Source: Candidatus Wildermuthbacteria bacterium
GTDB taxonomy: Bacteria; Patescibacteriota; Minisyncoccia; Minisyncoccales; UBA10102
Assembly (NCBI GenBank): GCA_016203455.1
Contig: JACQMR010000007.1
Span: forward strand, 1 to 60,123
Length of the DNA stretch: 60,123 nt
Direction: 5' to 3'
Positions within the stretch are counted from its first letter, which is position 1. The number at the start of each line of letters is the position of its first letter. This document shows, one piece after another, positions 28,560-40,654 of the stretch. The position numbers and the translations under genes were made by a program. A model generated the notes under the pieces. It did no database searches. It saw only the letters and a list, made by a program, of their open reading frames with translations, and was not told where the DNA came from.

Positions 28560-30209
28560 GTGATGAATTTGAAAGAGGAATTGCAAAGCATTTTGCGGGG
28601 GGAAGTGAATGATTCGCCCGATTTGCTGAAGGCATACGGCAGGGACGCGAGTTTGTTTGAAGTGTTGCCCCGCATTGTCGTGTTCCCAAAAGACGCCAAA
28701 GATATACAGGCGCTGGTGAATTTTGCCCAGGAGCATCCGGAAGAGCGAATCTCTTTGACTTGCAGGTCCGGCGGAACCGATATGACCGGCGGGCCTCTCG
28801 GGGAGAGTATTATCGTGGATATGACCCGCCATTTCAACAAGATTTTGGAGATTGGCAATGGCATGGCGAGAGTTCAGCCAGGCGTCTACTACCGCGATTT
28901 TGAGAAAGTTGCAAAAGAACAGGGCCTGCTTTTGCCTTCGTACCCTGCTTCCAAAGACATTTGCACGGTTGGGGGCATGGTGGCTAATAATTCAGGAGGC
29001 GAGAAGACATTATCATGGGGCAAGACCGAGGATTATATCCTTGATTTGAAAGTGGTTCTTGCCGACGGGCGTGAGCATGACATTCGTCCGATTTCTTCGC
29101 TGGAATTGGAAGGAAAAATGAACGATCCGGAGTTTGAGGGGGATATATATCGGAACACATTCTCTTTGGTGCGAGATAACGCGGAGGAGCTCAAAGAGGC
29201 CAAGCCCAAAGTTTCCAAGAATTCCGCGGGATATTATCTCTGGAATGTATGGGATGGGAGTTGTTTTGATTTGACAAAGCTGTTCGCGGGTTCCCAGGGA
29301 ACGCTTGGCATCGTGACGGAAATAACATTTCGCCTTATCTCTCCCAAGAAGCATTCCGCTCTTTTGGTGTTATTTTTGTATGATCTTGCTCCTTTGGCGG
29401 ACATCGTGGATGTTTTGCTGAAAAGAAAGCCGGAGACGCTGGAATCGTATGACGATCAAACGCTGAAATTTGCCCTTACGCATATTCCGGATTTCTTTAA
29501 GATTCTTGGCGGAAGTTTTTTCTCGCTTGGCGTTCAGTTTTTGCCCGAATTGTTTATGTTTTTACAAGGAGGATTTCGGTTGCCCAAGGTAGTGGCGCTT
29601 GCCGAATTCACCGGGGATTCGGAAGAAGAGGTGTCTGAAAAAGCGCGGCATGCCCAACATGATCTGCGAAGGTTTTCTTTGCGGACAAGAGTAGCTCAAA
29701 ACGATGCCGAAGAGTTGAAATTTCTCACGGTGCGCAGGCAAAGTTTTAATCTTTTGCGCCATCATGTGAAAGGCGTTCGTACCGCTCCGTTTATTGACGA
29801 CATTATTGTCTCTCCCAAGGTTTTGCCCCAATTTTTACCCCGGTTGCAAGAGATTCTTAAAAAGCATCCTTCTTTGGTATATACGATAGCGGGCCATGTG
29901 GGCGACGGAAATTTCCACATTATTCCTTTAATGGATATGCAAAAGCAAGAAAACAGGGATATGATTCCCGGCATGATGAAAGAGGTGCATGATTTGGTGT
30001 TTTCTTTTGGGGGCTCCATGACCGCAGAGCATAATGACGGCATTATACGAACTCCATTTTTGAAAGATATGTACGGAGAAAAGATCGTGGATTTGTTCCG
30101 GAAGACCAAAAAGATTTTTGACCCGATGAATATATTCAACCCGGGAAAAAAAGTGGAAGGTTCGTGGGAATACGCGGCCACCCATCTTATACGGGAAAAT
30201 AATACATAA
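28560..30209 (+). CDS. FAD-binding oxidoreductase (GlcD / D-lactate dehydrogenase-like)
   Basis: CRSGGTDMTGG, SKDICTVGGMVANNSGG, AGHVGDGNFHIIP, MNIFNPGKK. Confidence 0.9.
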   Translation: MMNLKEELQSILRGEVNDSPDLLKAYGRDASLFEVLPRIVVFPKDAKDIQALVNFAQEHPEERISLTCRSGGTDMTGGPLGESIIVDMTRHFNKILEIGNGMARVQPGVYYRDFEKVAKEQGLLLPSYPASKDICTVGGMVANNSGGEKTLSWGKTEDYILDLKVVLADGREHDIRPISSLELEGKMNDPEFEGDIYRNTFSLVRDNAEELKEAKPKVSKNSAGYYLWNVWDGSCFDLTKLFAGSQGTLGIVTEITFRLISPKKHSALLVLFLYDLAPLADIVDVLLKRKPETLESYDDQTLKFALTHIPDFFKILGGSFFSLGVQFLPELFMFLQGGFRLPKVVALAEFTGDSEEEVSEKARHAQHDLRRFSLRTRVAQNDAEELKFLTVRRQSFNLLRHHVKGVRTAPFIDDIIVSPKVLPQFLPRLQEILKKHPSLVYTIAGHVGDGNFHIIPLMDMQKQENRDMIPGMMKEVHDLVFSFGGSMTAEHNDGIIRTPFLKDMYGEKIVDLFRKTKKIFDPMNIFNPGKKVEGSWEYAATHLIRENNT

Positions 30210-30286
30210 GGTGTCCGCAACTGGTTGTATATTCATTAACTCTTGACTTGTTTTGGAGGTGCGGGGTACAATCTTTTTAGGCACAT

Positions 30287-30383
30287 AACAGAAAGAACGG
30301 AATCAGAGGAAGCGGGTGAGATTCCCGCGCTCCCCCGGAACGGTAATCCGCAGTGTGCGGAAAGCCCGGTCGACTGGTTCTGT
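30287..30383 (+). promoter_or_regulatory. Cobalamin riboswitch (predicted)
   Basis: P1 AACAGAA/TTCTGTT; GCGGGTGAGATTCCCGCGCTCCCCCGGAACGGTAATCCGC core; AAGCCCGGTCGACTGG B12-box-like segment. Confidence 0.75.
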
Positions 30384-30452
30384 TAATAGTTTTTTGTCTT
30401 TCGCGGGAAAGAAATGCGCATGATGTTTTTTTAAGTCAGCATCTGTGCTTCA

Positions 30453-30478
30453 AAGCTCTCCCGGGGAGTTTTTTTGTT
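30453..30478 (+). terminator. Possible riboswitch expression-platform terminator
   Basis: CTCTCCCGGGGAG followed by TTTTTTT, before the first ORF. Confidence 0.55.
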
Positions 30479-30525
30479 TATTCCGCATGTCAGTTTTTTA
30501 TGAGTATTGCATGATATTCAGCGAT

Positions 30526-30969
30526 ATGAAGGGGATATTCGCCAGATACGGGTTGTTCGCGGTTCTTTCCATAAGCGCTGGTGGATTCGCATTTTTCTCC
30601 TTTATTTGGGGTAGGACAGGATATGATGTCCTACCTTTGGCAAATCAGGAAACCTGGGCGCAGGAACAAGTTGCCGTTTTTCTTGACTTTCAGGGGGAGA
30701 GATATAAAGCGGAGCTAACGGCAGGAAGTTCGGCGCTTGATCTCATGGAATACGCGCGCCAATCCGGCCAATTCAGTTTTGAGGGCAGAGAGTATCCCGG
30801 AATAGGGTTTTTTGTGGACGAGGTTGCCGGAATCAAGCAAGACCCGAGAGAGAGAAAGTATTGGATATATTATATTAACGGAAAGAAGGCAACTGTCGGG
30901 GTGTCTTCATATAAACTGCAAGAAGGAGATGTAATTTCCTGGAAATACGAGGATGATGAAAATTTTTAG
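30526..30969 (+). CDS. Membrane-anchored DUF4430 (transcobalamin C-terminal-like) protein; upstream starts at 30487/30445 possible
   Basis: N-terminal TM; GIGFFVDEVAGIKQDPRERKYWIYYINGKKATVGVSSYKLQEGDVISWKYED. Confidence 0.75.
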   Translation: MKGIFARYGLFAVLSISAGGFAFFSFIWGRTGYDVLPLANQETWAQEQVAVFLDFQGERYKAELTAGSSALDLMEYARQSGQFSFEGREYPGIGFFVDEVAGIKQDPRERKYWIYYINGKKATVGVSSYKLQEGDVISWKYEDDENF

Positions 30970-32668
30970 CATAGGGTTGCTTGTTGTTGCCGGATGTATG
31001 TTTGCCGGGATCTCTCACGGAGCCAGCGTCAATGTAACGCTTCTTGTGGCGGGCCCGGGGGGTTTAATGACGAACACTGCCGTTGCGGTGCCTGATTCTT
31101 GTTCTGTTGAGGATTCGGCAGGAGTTGCGCATGTGTTCGGGGGCAATAGCTCCGTGTGCGCCTTGCGGGTTGCGGCAGAGGGAGGCCTGATATCAGGATT
31201 TGAGATTACCGACTGGGGTTTTGGTTTTAGCTTAGACAGCATCGGGGGAGTTTCAAACGAGCCGGACTGGAGCGAATTCTGGATTATATGGAAAAACGGG
31301 ACGCTTTCAGACCTTGGCATTGATCTTACAACTCTTGCAAATGGAGACGAATTATCTTTGGAATTCGGCCCCTGGCCCGGTGATGGCGCTGTCGTGGAGA
31401 CGGGCGGAGGACCCGTTGTCGCAGGTCCTCTTCCGGCAACATTTAATCAGGAACAAGCCGCGCTTTTTCTTGTTTTGAATCAGAATGAAGACGGTTCGTT
31501 CGGGTCTTTGCCTTTTTTGTCCGATTGGGTGGCAATTGCGTTTGGTGCATACGAAGGACAGAGCGCGAGCGTGGCGAACGCAAAGAATGCCCTAGCGGGA
31601 TTTTTGAAAGAAGATGCTACTTTGGATTCCCTGACCGATTATGAAAGAAGAGCCATGGCATTGCTGGCGTTGGGCATGGATCCGAGAAATGAGGGCCCCG
31701 TAGATGTTATCGCGAAAATTGAAGAGCAGTTTGACGGAGTGCAATTCGGGAGTCCTTCAGCCGCGAACGACGATATATTCGCTCTTTTCTCTTTATTGAA
31801 ATCCGGCTACGCAAGAGAAGACGAGATGATAAAGAAGAGTTTTGAGTTTGTCAGGTCTTTTCAAGCAGAAGACGGATCGTTCGGGGGAGTAGACATGACT
31901 GCCGCGGTTATACAGGCATTTGCGCTTGCGGGCATGGAAGACGAGAGCGTATCGCGCGCCCGCGCGTATCTTCTTTCACGGGAAGTTCGTCCGGGAGATT
32001 TTGGTAACGCGTATTCAAGTTCGTGGGCTCTTCAGGCGCTTTCCGCTTTGAACGACCGCGCGGATGCTTCATGGCTTGCTTCTCTTCAGGAACAAGACGG
32101 GGGATTGGCAGAAGAGACGCTTGATAACCGCGTATGGATTACGGCTTACGCGCTCCCCGCGGTTTTGGGAAAGGCATGGGGGGACATTTTGATTACGGCT
32201 TTGCCCGCCGCGGTTTCGTTTGAAACGGACGAAGGCATGGGTTTATCCAAGGGGGAGGGCGATGGCGTATCCGCCCCTCTAACGCTTGAGGAGATTCAGT
32301 TCCGGGTGGATGCGGTTGCTTTTGAGGTTGAGGCGCTTAAGCCCCAGGTTGCCTTATTGCGCGCTGAATATCTCGCGCGTCTTGAAGCGCAATCGCTTGC
32401 CGCGGGCGGAGAGAAAAAGCAGGTTCAAGAATATGTGGCGACTGCAACTGCCGCGGAGCCGTCGCTTGATTTTCAAGATGTTTCGCCTTCAACGGTTAGA
32501 TTTGACGAGGCGAGTTTTTCAGCGGATGTCGCAGGCGCGGTATCTCCCCGTTTCTTTCAGTCGCCGGGAGGCCTTATTGCCATGGCTGTTGGTCTGGGTA
32601 TGTTGATTTTTCTTATCTTGGGCAAGGGAAGGTTTACTTTTGCGGCGTTTTTGAGAAGAGCCGCCTAG
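30953..32668 (+). CDS. Secreted transcobalamin-like protein: DUF4430-like domain, alpha/alpha-barrel (terpene-cyclase-like) domain, C-terminal TM anchor
   Basis: Signal peptide; NQNEDGSFGS, QAEDGSFGGVDMTAAVIQAFAL, LQEQDGGLAEETLDNRVWITAYALPAV; C-terminal LIAMAVGLGMLIFLILGKGRF. Confidence 0.7.
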   Translation: MMKIFSIGLLVVAGCMFAGISHGASVNVTLLVAGPGGLMTNTAVAVPDSCSVEDSAGVAHVFGGNSSVCALRVAAEGGLISGFEITDWGFGFSLDSIGGVSNEPDWSEFWIIWKNGTLSDLGIDLTTLANGDELSLEFGPWPGDGAVVETGGGPVVAGPLPATFNQEQAALFLVLNQNEDGSFGSLPFLSDWVAIAFGAYEGQSASVANAKNALAGFLKEDATLDSLTDYERRAMALLALGMDPRNEGPVDVIAKIEEQFDGVQFGSPSAANDDIFALFSLLKSGYAREDEMIKKSFEFVRSFQAEDGSFGGVDMTAAVIQAFALAGMEDESVSRARAYLLSREVRPGDFGNAYSSSWALQALSALNDRADASWLASLQEQDGGLAEETLDNRVWITAYALPAVLGKAWGDILITALPAAVSFETDEGMGLSKGEGDGVSAPLTLEEIQFRVDAVAFEVEALKPQVALLRAEYLARLEAQSLAAGGEKKQVQEYVATATAAEPSLDFQDVSPSTVRFDEASFSADVAGAVSPRFFQSPGGLIAMAVGLGMLIFLILGKGRFTFAAFLRRAA

Positions 32669-32700: not shown

Positions 32701-33156
32701 ATGAAGATTTATCTCGCGGCAGATCATGCAGGATATGAATTGAAGGAGGCGGTAAAAGAATATCTGTTGAGCAAAGGCATGGACACAGACGACCTCGGCG
32801 CGTTTTCTTTTGACGAAGCGGATGATTATACCGATGTTGTCATACCGGCCGCCAGAAAAGTGGCAGAAGACGAGAAAGAAAGCAGGGCGTTTGTTTTTGG
32901 GGGATCGGGGCAGGGAGAGGCGATAGCCGCGAACAAGATACCCGGAATTCGGGCGGCCGTGTATTACGGAGGACCCCTGGATATTGTTGAACTGTCCAGA
33001 CGGCATAATGACGCTAATATTCTTTCGTTTGGCGCCCGATTTTTATCCCAGGACGAGGCGTTTCGCGCGGTTGACTGCTGGCTGGAAACGGAGTTTGAAA
33101 GTGGAAGGCATGGCCGGCGGCTTGAGAAGATTAGAGCGGAGGAGTTTGGCGCGTAA
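32701..33156 (+). CDS. rpiB: RpiB/LacA/LacB sugar-phosphate isomerase
   Basis: IYLAADHAGYELKE, FGGSGQGEAIAANK, SRRHNDANILSFGARF. Confidence 0.9.
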   Translation: MKIYLAADHAGYELKEAVKEYLLSKGMDTDDLGAFSFDEADDYTDVVIPAARKVAEDEKESRAFVFGGSGQGEAIAANKIPGIRAAVYYGGPLDIVELSRRHNDANILSFGARFLSQDEAFRAVDCWLETEFESGRHGRRLEKIRAEEFGA

Positions 33157-33158
33157 CA

Positions 33159-33791
33159 ATGCAAAAGATTATCCCAGCGATTCTTACTCTTGATTCTTCC
33201 GCTCTGCAAAAGCGTCTTGCTGTATTGCGCGGCAAATCAAAGTGGGTACAGATAGATATTATGGACGGAACATTCGTTCCTAATACTTCTGTCGGCATCT
33301 CTGAATTGGGCGAAGCGTTTGAGGAGTTTAATCTGGAGATTCATTTGATGGTTTTGCATCCGGAACGCTATCTTGAGGATTGTTTTTCCATTGGCGCAAA
33401 GAGGGTGTATGTTCACGCGGAGAGCGCGAAAGAACTCGCCGAGATTCTCTTGCTTATGAAAAAGTATCCTTTTGACAGGGGAGTCGCGATAAATCCGGAA
33501 ACACCTATCTCCGGTATTCTCAAGGTCGCAAATGATGTGGACGCGCTTTTGGTGTTAGGGGTTGTGCCGGGAGCGCAGGGTCATGCGTTTATTCCTTCAA
33601 CCATTCAAAAAATACGAGAAGCCAGAAACGCGTTTCCTGATATGACCATAGGAGTGGATGGAGGGGTGAGCGAGGCGAATGTCCGAGATGTGTTTGGCGC
33701 GGGAGTTGATTACGCCGTGGTTGGAAGCGGAATATGGGAGAACGAAGATCCGATCGCGGCTTTCAAGAAGTTAGAGGAGATGGTAAAATAA
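33159..33791 (+). CDS. rpe: Ribulose-phosphate 3-epimerase family
   Basis: VQIDIMDGTFVPN, EIHLMV, VDGGVSEANV. Confidence 0.88.
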   Translation: MQKIIPAILTLDSSALQKRLAVLRGKSKWVQIDIMDGTFVPNTSVGISELGEAFEEFNLEIHLMVLHPERYLEDCFSIGAKRVYVHAESAKELAEILLLMKKYPFDRGVAINPETPISGILKVANDVDALLVLGVVPGAQGHAFIPSTIQKIREARNAFPDMTIGVDGGVSEANVRDVFGAGVDYAVVGSGIWENEDPIAAFKKLEEMVK

Positions 33792-33795
33792 ATGT

Positions 33796-34656
33796 ATGCC
33801 TGCAAAGAAGTCGTATTCTGTCGCGGAATTGGAGGGAAAAGCCAACGAAATCCGCGAGGATATTATACAACTTTTGGTGAAAGCGGGATCCGGCCATACG
33901 GCCGGTCCTTTGGGCATGGCGGATGTGTTTTGCGCTTTGTATTTTAAGGTACTGAAGCACGATCCAAAGAATCCGTTATGGAAAGACCGCGACCGGCTTA
34001 TTCTTTCTAACGGACATATTTGTCCGGTACGGTATGTTGCCATGGCTCACGCCGGGTATTTTCCCAGAGAATGGCTGGGCGCATTCCGCCGGATTGATTC
34101 AATGCTGGAGGGCCATCCTTCCGTAAAAAAGATTCCCGCTCTGGAAACCTCGTCCGGCCCTCTGGGGGAAGGGTTGTCCCAGGCATGCGGATTCGCACTG
34201 GCGGCGCGCATGGACAACGCGAAATATCATACATGGTGTCTGCTTTCTGACGGAGAGCATCAAGAGGGCATGACTTGGGAGGCGGCAATGCTCGCGGGGA
34301 AGTACCGGTTGAGCAATCTCACCGCTATTATTGACCGCAATAACATACAGATTGACGGGAACACAGAGGATGTCATGCCATTAGAACCTTTGCGGGAAAA
34401 ATATGAAGCGTTTGGATGGCATGTAGAGGATGTTAATGGCCATGATATGCGGCAGATTATTTCAACATTAGAGGAGGCAAAGGCAATACAAGAGAAGCCC
34501 ACTTGCGTTATCATGAACACGGTAGCAGGCAAAGGGGTGGCTTTCGCGGAAAACGATTATAGATGGCACGGGATAACTCCGGATGTGGAGCAGGCAAGGG
34601 AGGCATTGCGGGAACTGCGAACATTGCACGGAAAGATTGAGTCAGAGATGGACTGA
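33796..34656 (+). CDS. Transketolase N-terminal subunit
   Basis: GSGHTAGPLGMADVF, DGEHQEGMTWEAAM, DRNNIQIDG. Confidence 0.92.
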   Translation: MPAKKSYSVAELEGKANEIREDIIQLLVKAGSGHTAGPLGMADVFCALYFKVLKHDPKNPLWKDRDRLILSNGHICPVRYVAMAHAGYFPREWLGAFRRIDSMLEGHPSVKKIPALETSSGPLGEGLSQACGFALAARMDNAKYHTWCLLSDGEHQEGMTWEAAMLAGKYRLSNLTAIIDRNNIQIDGNTEDVMPLEPLREKYEAFGWHVEDVNGHDMRQIISTLEEAKAIQEKPTCVIMNTVAGKGVAFAENDYRWHGITPDVEQAREALRELRTLHGKIESEMD

Positions 34657-38682: not shown

Positions 38683-38955
38683 ATGAACAAGGCATTGTTT
38701 TTGGGAATTGTTTTTTGCTTCTTGGCGGCTGTCGCGGGATTTGCTTATTACGCGATTTTTTTAAAACGCGGCGGCGACGAAATCACTCCCGTTCTTTTAG
38801 AAGAAGAGCAGGGAGGGCTTGGAAGCGAACTTTACGGAAAAACCGCGAATCCGGCGGAAAAGGTCCCGGAGATCAATCCTCTGGAAAAGATACGGGTTAA
38901 CCCATTAGATGGGGTGAACCCCTTTGAAGGAGGATATAAGAACCCTTTTGAATAA
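38683..38955 (+). CDS. Small membrane-anchored protein
   Basis: N-terminal TM then NPLEKIRVNPLDGVNPFEGGYKNPFE. Confidence 0.5.
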   Translation: MNKALFLGIVFCFLAAVAGFAYYAIFLKRGGDEITPVLLEEEQGGLGSELYGKTANPAEKVPEINPLEKIRVNPLDGVNPFEGGYKNPFE

Positions 38956-38959
38956 GAGT

Positions 38960-40654
38960 ATGAGAATTTTTTTATTGATGTGCGTCGCTTTAGGAATTTT
39001 TCTTGCGGGCGGCACGGTATTCGGGGAGAATAAGGACGATATTTCGTATCCGGTTGAAAATTTGGGAAACTGTGCGAATGAGAAAGAGTGCGAGACATAC
39101 TGTAATGCCCCGGAACATCTTGCCGCGTGTTTGGCGTTCGCGGAAGTTCATAATCTTCTTTCCGTTGAGGACATAGCAAAAGCGAAAAAATTTCAGGAAG
39201 CGGGCGCGGTGGGTCCCGGGGATTGCGGAACGGAAAAAGAATGCGAGGCGTATTGTTCTGCTGTTTCGCATATTGACGAATGTCTTGCGTTCGCTGAAAA
39301 GCACGGGTTTATGGAGTCAAAAGACCTGGAAGACGCGAAAAAGATTTCCCGCGCTTTACGAGAAGGCGCGCGGCTTCCCGGAGGATGCGCCACCAAGGAT
39401 CAGTGCGAATTGTACTGCGAGAATTCGGGGCACATGAAAGAATGCGTGGTATTTGCGGAGAAAGCGGGTTTTATGGATGAGGAGGAATTGCGGGAGGCAA
39501 AGCAGGTGCTGAAAGCGCTGGAGTCGGGGGCGTTTCTGCCCGGGAATTGCCAGGGGAAGAAGGCATGCGAGGCGTATTGCGCCGATTCTTCCCATATGGA
39601 GGAATGTTTGAATTTCGGGGTGGCCGCAGGTTTCATTCTTCCCGAAGAAGAGGCGGAAGCCAGAAGAATTTTGCCGTTAATGAAAGCAGGAAAAATGCCC
39701 GGCGATTGCCAGAGAGGCAGAGAAGCGTGCGAGGCGTACTGTTCACAAGATGAGCACAGAGAAGAATGCGCGCTGTTCTTTGTTGAGGCGGGATTTATGA
39801 CGAAAGAGGAGGTAAGCATGTTTAAAAAGACCGGAGGAAAAGGGCCGGGCGGATGCAGAGGAAAAGAACAGTGCGACGCGCTGTGCAATAATCCGGAGAA
39901 TCAAAGCGTATGTTTTGAATTCGCGAAAGAGCATGGGCTCATACCGGAGGAAGAGCTTGAGAATATGAAAGAAGGGATTGGGAAGTTTAAAGAAGGCATT
40001 GCCATGGCTCCGCCCGAAGTCGCTCAATGCTTGGGGGACCGGATTGGACAGGATGTGCTGGATAAAATACGGGCAGGGACATTTTTGCCGAATCCGGACC
40101 TTGGAGAAGAGATGCGCCGTTGCTTTGAGGAATTTTTGCCTGACCGCAGGGAAGGGGATATTGGAGCTGGCGGGAATGATGTTGCCGGCGGGGAGCCCTT
40201 TGGGCAAAATTCTGGCGAGGGCGCGTGTTTAGAGAGGATTTTGGGGCCTTCGCGCGACAGATCCGTACCCCCCACTCCAGAGCAAGAGCGCCGTCTTGCC
40301 GAGGAATGCTTCCCCGAGAGAGAATCTGATCGTTTGCCTTTTCAAGAACAGAGCCGAGATGACTTTAGAGAAGGTTCTCTTGAATTTTCAGATGAGGGCA
40401 TTCAAGTTTCTCCCGAAGATATCCTGCGCAGAGAAGAGATGGAGACCACCATGGAGTTGCGGCAACGAATTATGGAGGAGGAAACGCGCCGCATGCAGAT
40501 GGAAGTACAACTTCAAGAGCAGTTTCAGCATATTCAACAGTTGCAAGAATCGCAAGAATCAGAAGATCGTCGCGCCCCATCTCAAGAATTTCCCGCGGGC
40601 GGGTCTGTCATTGACGCGTTTTTGGGGTTATTCGGAGTTTCATTGATTAAATAA
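38960..40654 (+). CDS. Secreted Cys-rich tandem-repeat protein
   Basis: Signal peptide; 5-6 repeats of C-x5/6-C-x3-C-x4-[HN]-x3-C-x2-F. Confidence 0.75.
   Translation: MRIFLLMCVALGIFLAGGTVFGENKDDISYPVENLGNCANEKECETYCNAPEHLAACLAFAEVHNLLSVEDIAKAKKFQEAGAVGPGDCGTEKECEAYCSAVSHIDECLAFAEKHGFMESKDLEDAKKISRALREGARLPGGCATKDQCELYCENSGHMKECVVFAEKAGFMDEEELREAKQVLKALESGAFLPGNCQGKKACEAYCADSSHMEECLNFGVAAGFILPEEEAEARRILPLMKAGKMPGDCQRGREACEAYCSQDEHREECALFFVEAGFMTKEEVSMFKKTGGKGPGGCRGKEQCDALCNNPENQSVCFEFAKEHGLIPEEELENMKEGIGKFKEGIAMAPPEVAQCLGDRIGQDVLDKIRAGTFLPNPDLGEEMRRCFEEFLPDRREGDIGAGGNDVAGGEPFGQNSGEGACLERILGPSRDRSVPPTPEQERRLAEECFPERESDRLPFQEQSRDDFREGSLEFSDEGIQVSPEDILRREEMETTMELRQRIMEEETRRMQMEVQLQEQFQHIQQLQESQESEDRRAPSQEFPAGGSVIDAFLGLFGVSLIK

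Follow-up and report, generated by a model that had tools for sequence, protein, structure and literature searches.

How a bacterium with a minimal genome might come by vitamin B12 is the question raised by this locus, in which a leader resembling a cobalamin riboswitch stands ahead of two genes for transcobalamin-like proteins. Many B12-dependent bacteria have no known importer, a matter that has been called open (PMC6072759, PMC6593275, PMC6977713). The locus lies in a stretch of 60,123 nucleotides, analysed as a whole and referred to here as the window, which belongs to a 519-kb draft genome that is 83% complete. We consider it likely, with a probability of roughly 0.78, that the locus provides B12 sensing and surface capture for a riboswitch-controlled B12 scavenging system, in which import would fall to a membrane protein of the family DUF6580, with PduO and NrdJ acting thereafter.

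The leader was analysed by cmscan. A search of 241 bases matched the AdoCbl riboswitch family RF01482 over the full length of the model (55.9 bits against a gathering score of 50; E 5.5e-10), at positions 30284 to 30422 of the forward strand, and this was the sole Rfam match within the 60-kb window. The more general model, RF00174, also scored above threshold there (32.3 bits). The earlier note had proposed a cobalamin-riboswitch-like leader and named cmscan as the check. The proposal held: the segment that it had delimited, 30287 to 30383, is the aptamer core, the sequence motifs it had listed are present, and Rfam extends the feature with a 3' hairpin to 30422. Comparison of 15 related aptamers revealed compensatory changes, with both sides changed and pairing kept, at 17 of 21 consensus pairs. 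When 60 genomes were scanned, the window aptamer had the best RF01482 score and was the only one over threshold in that scan. The covariance model and the covariation together show that this element is a cobalamin riboswitch; that it binds AdoCbl and regulates the genes behind it is inferred. No second cobalamin riboswitch was found when the draft genome was searched with RF00174.

Pattern scanning and folding located a terminator-like hairpin with a T run at 30452 to 30472 (forward strand), which is the probable expression platform and which the earlier note had also described. One such hairpin was observed against a mean of 0.4 in shuffled sequences, so the feature exceeds chance only modestly and is weak on its own. 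Equally weak is a promoter-like site found by consensus scan ahead of the leader (TTGACT-18-TACAAT; 30243 to 30272, forward strand), which has 10 of 12 consensus matches where 0.5 such sites would be expected by chance. Because of the riboswitch family and the terminator-like hairpin, we infer that the element is an AdoCbl off-switch. It resembles known members of RF01482 and RF00174 (clan CL00101) in its full-length match over the gathering score and its conserved 3' hairpin, and differs from them in that the genes it is predicted to control are transcobalamin-like capture genes and not btuB, btuCDF or biosynthesis genes.

ORF1 (30526 to 30969, forward strand) encodes a protein of 147 amino acids with one N-terminal hydrophobic anchor, indicated by hydropathy, and a DUF4430 domain (PF14478) of the transcobalamin beta-domain type. 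The Pfam match is strong (65.3 bits, cut-off 23.8; E 7e-18). The ATG at 30526 is the likeliest start, since a start at the GTG at 30445 would put the terminator hairpin inside the gene. ORF2 (30953 to 32668, forward strand) encodes 571 amino acids that, on the evidence of Pfam, AlphaFold, Foldseek and hydropathy, comprise a signal-like N terminus, a DUF4430-like domain, an alpha/alpha toroid of 12 helices, a helical spacer and a C-terminal hydrophobic helix. Its DUF4430 match lies at the threshold (22.2 bits in one scan and 25.7 in another, cut-off 23.8); in relatives of ORF2 the domain is clearly above the Pfam cut-off. Cobalamin_bind (PF01122) was matched below threshold (20.7 bits against 25). 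DUF4430 is the name given to the C-terminal domain of transcobalamins in a vertebrate paper (PMC4350170), and the open-access literature searched ties DUF4430 to B12 in vertebrates only.

Searches of the PDB with the single sequences of ORF1 and ORF2 were uninformative (transcobalamin was reached at E 0.11 for ORF1), and profile and fold comparisons were therefore needed. The AlphaFold model of ORF2 has a mean pLDDT of 76.6, with the two domains mostly above 85, and contains the 12 toroid helices. The top Foldseek match was drimenyl diphosphate synthase; bovine, human and rat transcobalamin, intrinsic factor and haptocorrin followed at similar E-values (1e-5 to 4e-4). For the beta domain of transcobalamin taken alone, the TM-score with the ORF2 model was 0.74 (normalised to the beta domain). 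Squalene-hopene cyclases were the best-scoring matches of the toroid profile, and because cyclases and complement proteins or domains have the same alpha/alpha fold, the toroid by itself is not diagnostic. What points to the B12 carriers is its pairing with DUF4430, for which there are no binding data.

That pairing, a DUF4430-type beta domain with a 12-helix alpha/alpha barrel, is shared by ORF2 with transcobalamin, intrinsic factor and haptocorrin, all three of which Foldseek matched. Unlike them, ORF2 is bacterial, membrane-tethered and of beta-alpha order, and it is accompanied by an extra, free-standing DUF4430 protein, ORF1; relatives L022 and L026 have the alpha-beta order of transcobalamin. 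A PHROGs search with ORF1 and ORF2 found no match and hence no sign of phage origin. We conclude that the two are probably surface proteins built like animal B12 carriers, with surface location and cobalamin binding both inferred. The claims made from sequence alone thus fared well: the DUF4430-like domains held clearly for ORF1 and at threshold for ORF2; the alpha/alpha repeats, signal-like N terminus and C-terminal hydrophobic helix of ORF2 were borne out by the model and hydropathy, and its transcobalamin-like fold by Foldseek; and the membrane-tethered B12-capture pair is supported, short of B12 binding itself.

The arrangement recurs in relatives. RF01482 matches were found in 13 of 60 related genomes, and in 12 of these DUF4430 or toroid genes directly follow. 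A permissive scan of 16 DUF4430 loci added one match over threshold (L066), one just under it (L071) and weaker ones. In many genomes toroid and DUF4430 are fused or linked under cobalamin riboswitches, in both domain orders and adjoining DUF6580. The one exception among the 13 genomes, G005, has a riboswitch match without DUF4430, DUF6580 or NrdJ matches. Its weak RF01482 match (33 bits; L025:12212-12360) has the same gene neighbourhood as the window and is possibly a remnant left after loss of the system. No paper joining cobalamin riboswitches with the candidate phyla radiation was found in the open-access literature searched.

The earlier note had also suggested a search for B12-dependent enzymes, and this revealed NrdJ, the class II (AdoCbl-dependent) ribonucleotide reductase, in the same genome (656.8 bits against the NCBIfam TIGR02504 cut-off of 399.95; top family, "vitamin B12-dependent ribonucleotide reductase"). 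On a contig other than that of the window, nrdJ, pduO and DUF6580 stand in tandem. An NrdR-like reading frame, identified by eye, precedes nrdJ; the PduO cobalamin adenosyltransferase (TIGR00636, 159 bits) comes directly after it, and DUF6580, at about 19751 to 20296 of contig C9, starts about 5 bases past PduO. CobS was found in none of 60 genomes, this one included, which argues against the finishing of cobalamin from precursors. The organism, a patescibacterium, probably can neither make nor complete cobalamin, a judgement made without an enzyme-by-enzyme survey of biosynthesis.

Five relatives (L018, L019, L022, L026 and L027) carry a small membrane protein inside the riboswitch cluster. 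That of L018 is DUF6580 (Pfam, E 4e-49), a family without an assigned function, and the same family occupies the other four places. DUF6580 occurs in 29 of the 60 relatives and in 24 of the 25 DUF4430 genomes (Fisher p 9e-11). Because such p-values treat kin genomes as independent and overstate significance, the count was also made with one genome per family, which gave DUF6580 in 7/7 DUF4430 genomes against 2/29 others (p 4e-6). Of the 23 related genomes that hold both genes, 19 have DUF6580 shortly downstream of nrdJ; phylum-wide, the two are on one strand and within 5 kb of each other in 29 of 41 genomes. Between them there is usually PduO; in L031 and L056 the place is taken by a non-homologous CobA-type adenosyltransferase (in L056 by resemblance). 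That one position is filled by enzymes which share a function but are not related is good evidence that the genes are functionally linked. Phylum-wide presence or absence of NrdJ was rejected as proof of linkage, being too weak (86% versus 69%, p 0.017), so adjacency carries the argument. Six of the 29 relatives with DUF6580 have no NrdJ match. Many NrdJ-bearing Patescibacteria are without DUF6580, which would therefore be one route among several.

A scan of GTDB genomes returned 80 DUF6580 loci. Many of the patescibacterial ones repeat the NrdJ, PduO/CobA, DUF4430 and toroid neighbours, and at L134, a locus labelled Actinomycetes, a riboswitch occurs together with DUF4430, toroid-DUF4430 and DUF6580. 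At loci of Bacteroidota, Ignavibacteria, Blastocatellia and others, DUF6580 is accompanied by TonB receptors, periplasmic binding proteins, a BtuG-like propeller or DUF71; bacterial DUF71 has been tied to B12 salvage (PMC3541065). For the two TonB receptors scanned, the best NCBIfam model was a B12 receptor, below the equivalog cut-off. RF00174 was matched at 13 of 15 tested DUF6580 loci outside Patescibacteria. DUF6580 itself has no NCBIfam match and is not mentioned in the open-access literature searched; an earlier prediction is not excluded, most subscription journals having been outside the search. The family may already appear as "putative transport protein" in NCBI annotation.

The AlphaFold model of DUF6580 (30 sequences, mean pLDDT 92) has five long and two shorter helices. 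Among the PDB matches listed by Foldseek, the highest TM-score belonged to BtuM with hydroxycobalamin (0.67/0.69, probability 0.99), and other S components (riboflavin, thiamin, folate) scored 0.45 to 0.65. The E-value of the BtuM match was 0.43 and no listed match was below 0.001; the likeness is therefore one of fold and does not prove homology. BtuM itself resembles S components and sustains B12 uptake with no ECF module (PMC6072759). DUF6580 is like it in size, in its membrane-helix fold and in the lack of an ECF module in the genome. It is unlike BtuM in showing no detectable sequence similarity (a profile of 30 DUF6580 proteins had no sequence match among PDB chains at E up to 10, BtuM included) and in lacking a cysteine at any position that is invariant or almost so; in BtuM of Thiobacillus denitrificans, cobalt is bound through a cysteine (PMC6072759). 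The invariant residues of DUF6580 include R21, N28, D62, N115 and W119.

The earlier note had recognised no transporter in the window, which is correct as far as searched, and had proposed looking in the genome for an ECF or BtuC-type transporter. Neither was found, and DUF6580, on another contig of the same genome, is a different candidate. EcfT (PF02361) was absent from this genome and from all 29 DUF6580 relatives; a BtuC-type/FecCD transporter had no match in the draft, and FecCD exceeded its cut-off, barely, in only 1 of the 29. Since the draft is 83% complete, it remains possible that an ECF or ABC transporter has been missed. The nearest parallel to this line of reasoning is CbrT, which was predicted from an nrdJ-cbrS-cbrT-pduO cluster and later confirmed (PMC5997447). 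As with ECF-CbrT of Lactobacillus delbrueckii, an S-component-like gene is clustered with nrdJ and pduO; CbrT uses an ECF module, whereas no EcfT was found alongside DUF6580. DUF6580 is thus a likely candidate for a B12 importer acting alone, with transport inferred in the absence of transport data. A bolder reading, which we hold to be more likely than not, is that the DUF6580 proteins of Patescibacteria, Bacteroidota, Ignavibacteria and other phyla form a family of B12 importers that has gone unrecognised, each being solitary and S-component-like. In Patescibacteria the importer would be served by riboswitch-controlled, membrane-tethered, transcobalamin-like receptors, which would be the bacterial equivalent of the B12 carriers of animals.

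In the scheme that we propose, transcription at low AdoCbl would read through the leader into the two-gene unit. ORF1, an anchored DUF4430 protein, and ORF2, anchored at its C terminus, would be located on the outer side of the membrane and enclose B12 between beta domain and alpha barrel, as in transcobalamin. They would hand it to the S-component-like DUF6580, a step inferred from linkage only: in this genome the capture genes and DUF6580 are on different contigs, and in several relatives they are adjacent. DUF6580 would move B12 inward without an ECF module, as proposed for BtuM, and PduO would adenosylate it for NrdJ. At high AdoCbl the aptamer would fold, transcription would stop before ORF1 and the leader would be off. 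Surface capture of B12 before import, at loci under cobalamin riboswitches, is also a feature of BtuG/BtuB of Bacteroides. BtuG is a beta-propeller lipoprotein of the outer membrane, whereas the capture fold of ORF1 and ORF2 is transcobalamin-like.

The alternative that survives best, though we think it unlikely, accepts the capture pair as proposed and has DUF6580 move cobinamide, a lower-ligand base or cobalt, while an unidentified importer takes B12. In its favour are the six DUF6580 relatives without an NrdJ match and a fold match that is to the S-component group generally and not to BtuM alone. Against it, the lack of CobS in all 60 genomes leaves cobinamide or the base without a known use, and DUF6580 adjoins an adenosyltransferase and B12-type TonB receptors. 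Less likely still is that ORF1 and ORF2 do not bind B12 and serve surface adhesion or the binding of polysaccharides or terpenoids, the riboswitch being there for another reason. The cyclase-like toroid profile and the drimenyl diphosphate synthase at the head of the ORF2 Foldseek list would fit this; the repeated fusion or linkage of toroid and DUF4430 under cobalamin riboswitches, in both orders and beside DUF6580, and the identity of this pairing with that of transcobalamin, intrinsic factor and haptocorrin speak against it. That the window aptamer is a non-functional remnant ahead of constitutive genes is also very improbable: the weakly supported expression platform and the stranded riboswitch-like match of G005 would allow it, but this aptamer is the top scorer described above and its helices covary among relatives.

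These results show that bacteria, too, have proteins of transcobalamin-like architecture, with the two domains in either order. Taken together, the locus and the rest of the genome offer a sensor, a capture device and, in DUF6580, a specific candidate for the importer, and suggest a route by which minimal-genome bacteria may obtain the cofactor of their ribonucleotide reductase.

Several further observations were made. In seven genomes (G001, G002, G009, G010, G013, G171 and G172) the NrdJ frames are about 1180 to 1300 amino acids long, and a long in-frame insertion interrupts the profile match at position 282 or 153; these insertions are likely to be inteins. In G071, G092, G098 and G124, NrdJ-like genes stand in tandem on a single contig, three or four per genome. 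Near DUF6580 in G056, a genome without an NrdJ match, there is a protein resembling a B12-binding radical SAM enzyme (L019:7450-8871, reverse strand), possibly an alternative use of imported B12. The alpha-beta capture clusters of L020, L022, L023 and L026 include a further gene, situated between the toroid gene and the DUF4430 or DUF6580 genes, for a secreted Ig-like protein that has a hydrophobic helix at its C terminus. In the window, the capture genes are flanked upstream by an FAD-linked oxidase gene (28560 to 30209) and downstream by RpiB, Rpe and transketolase-like genes (32701 to 34656), and these FAD-linked oxidase and pentose-phosphate surroundings recur in genomes of the same family (L017, L021, L023 and L024). 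Further along, positions 38924 to 40654 encode a secreted-looking protein of 576 amino acids in which a cysteine-rich repeat (for example CATKDQCELYCENSGHMKEC) occurs about six times.
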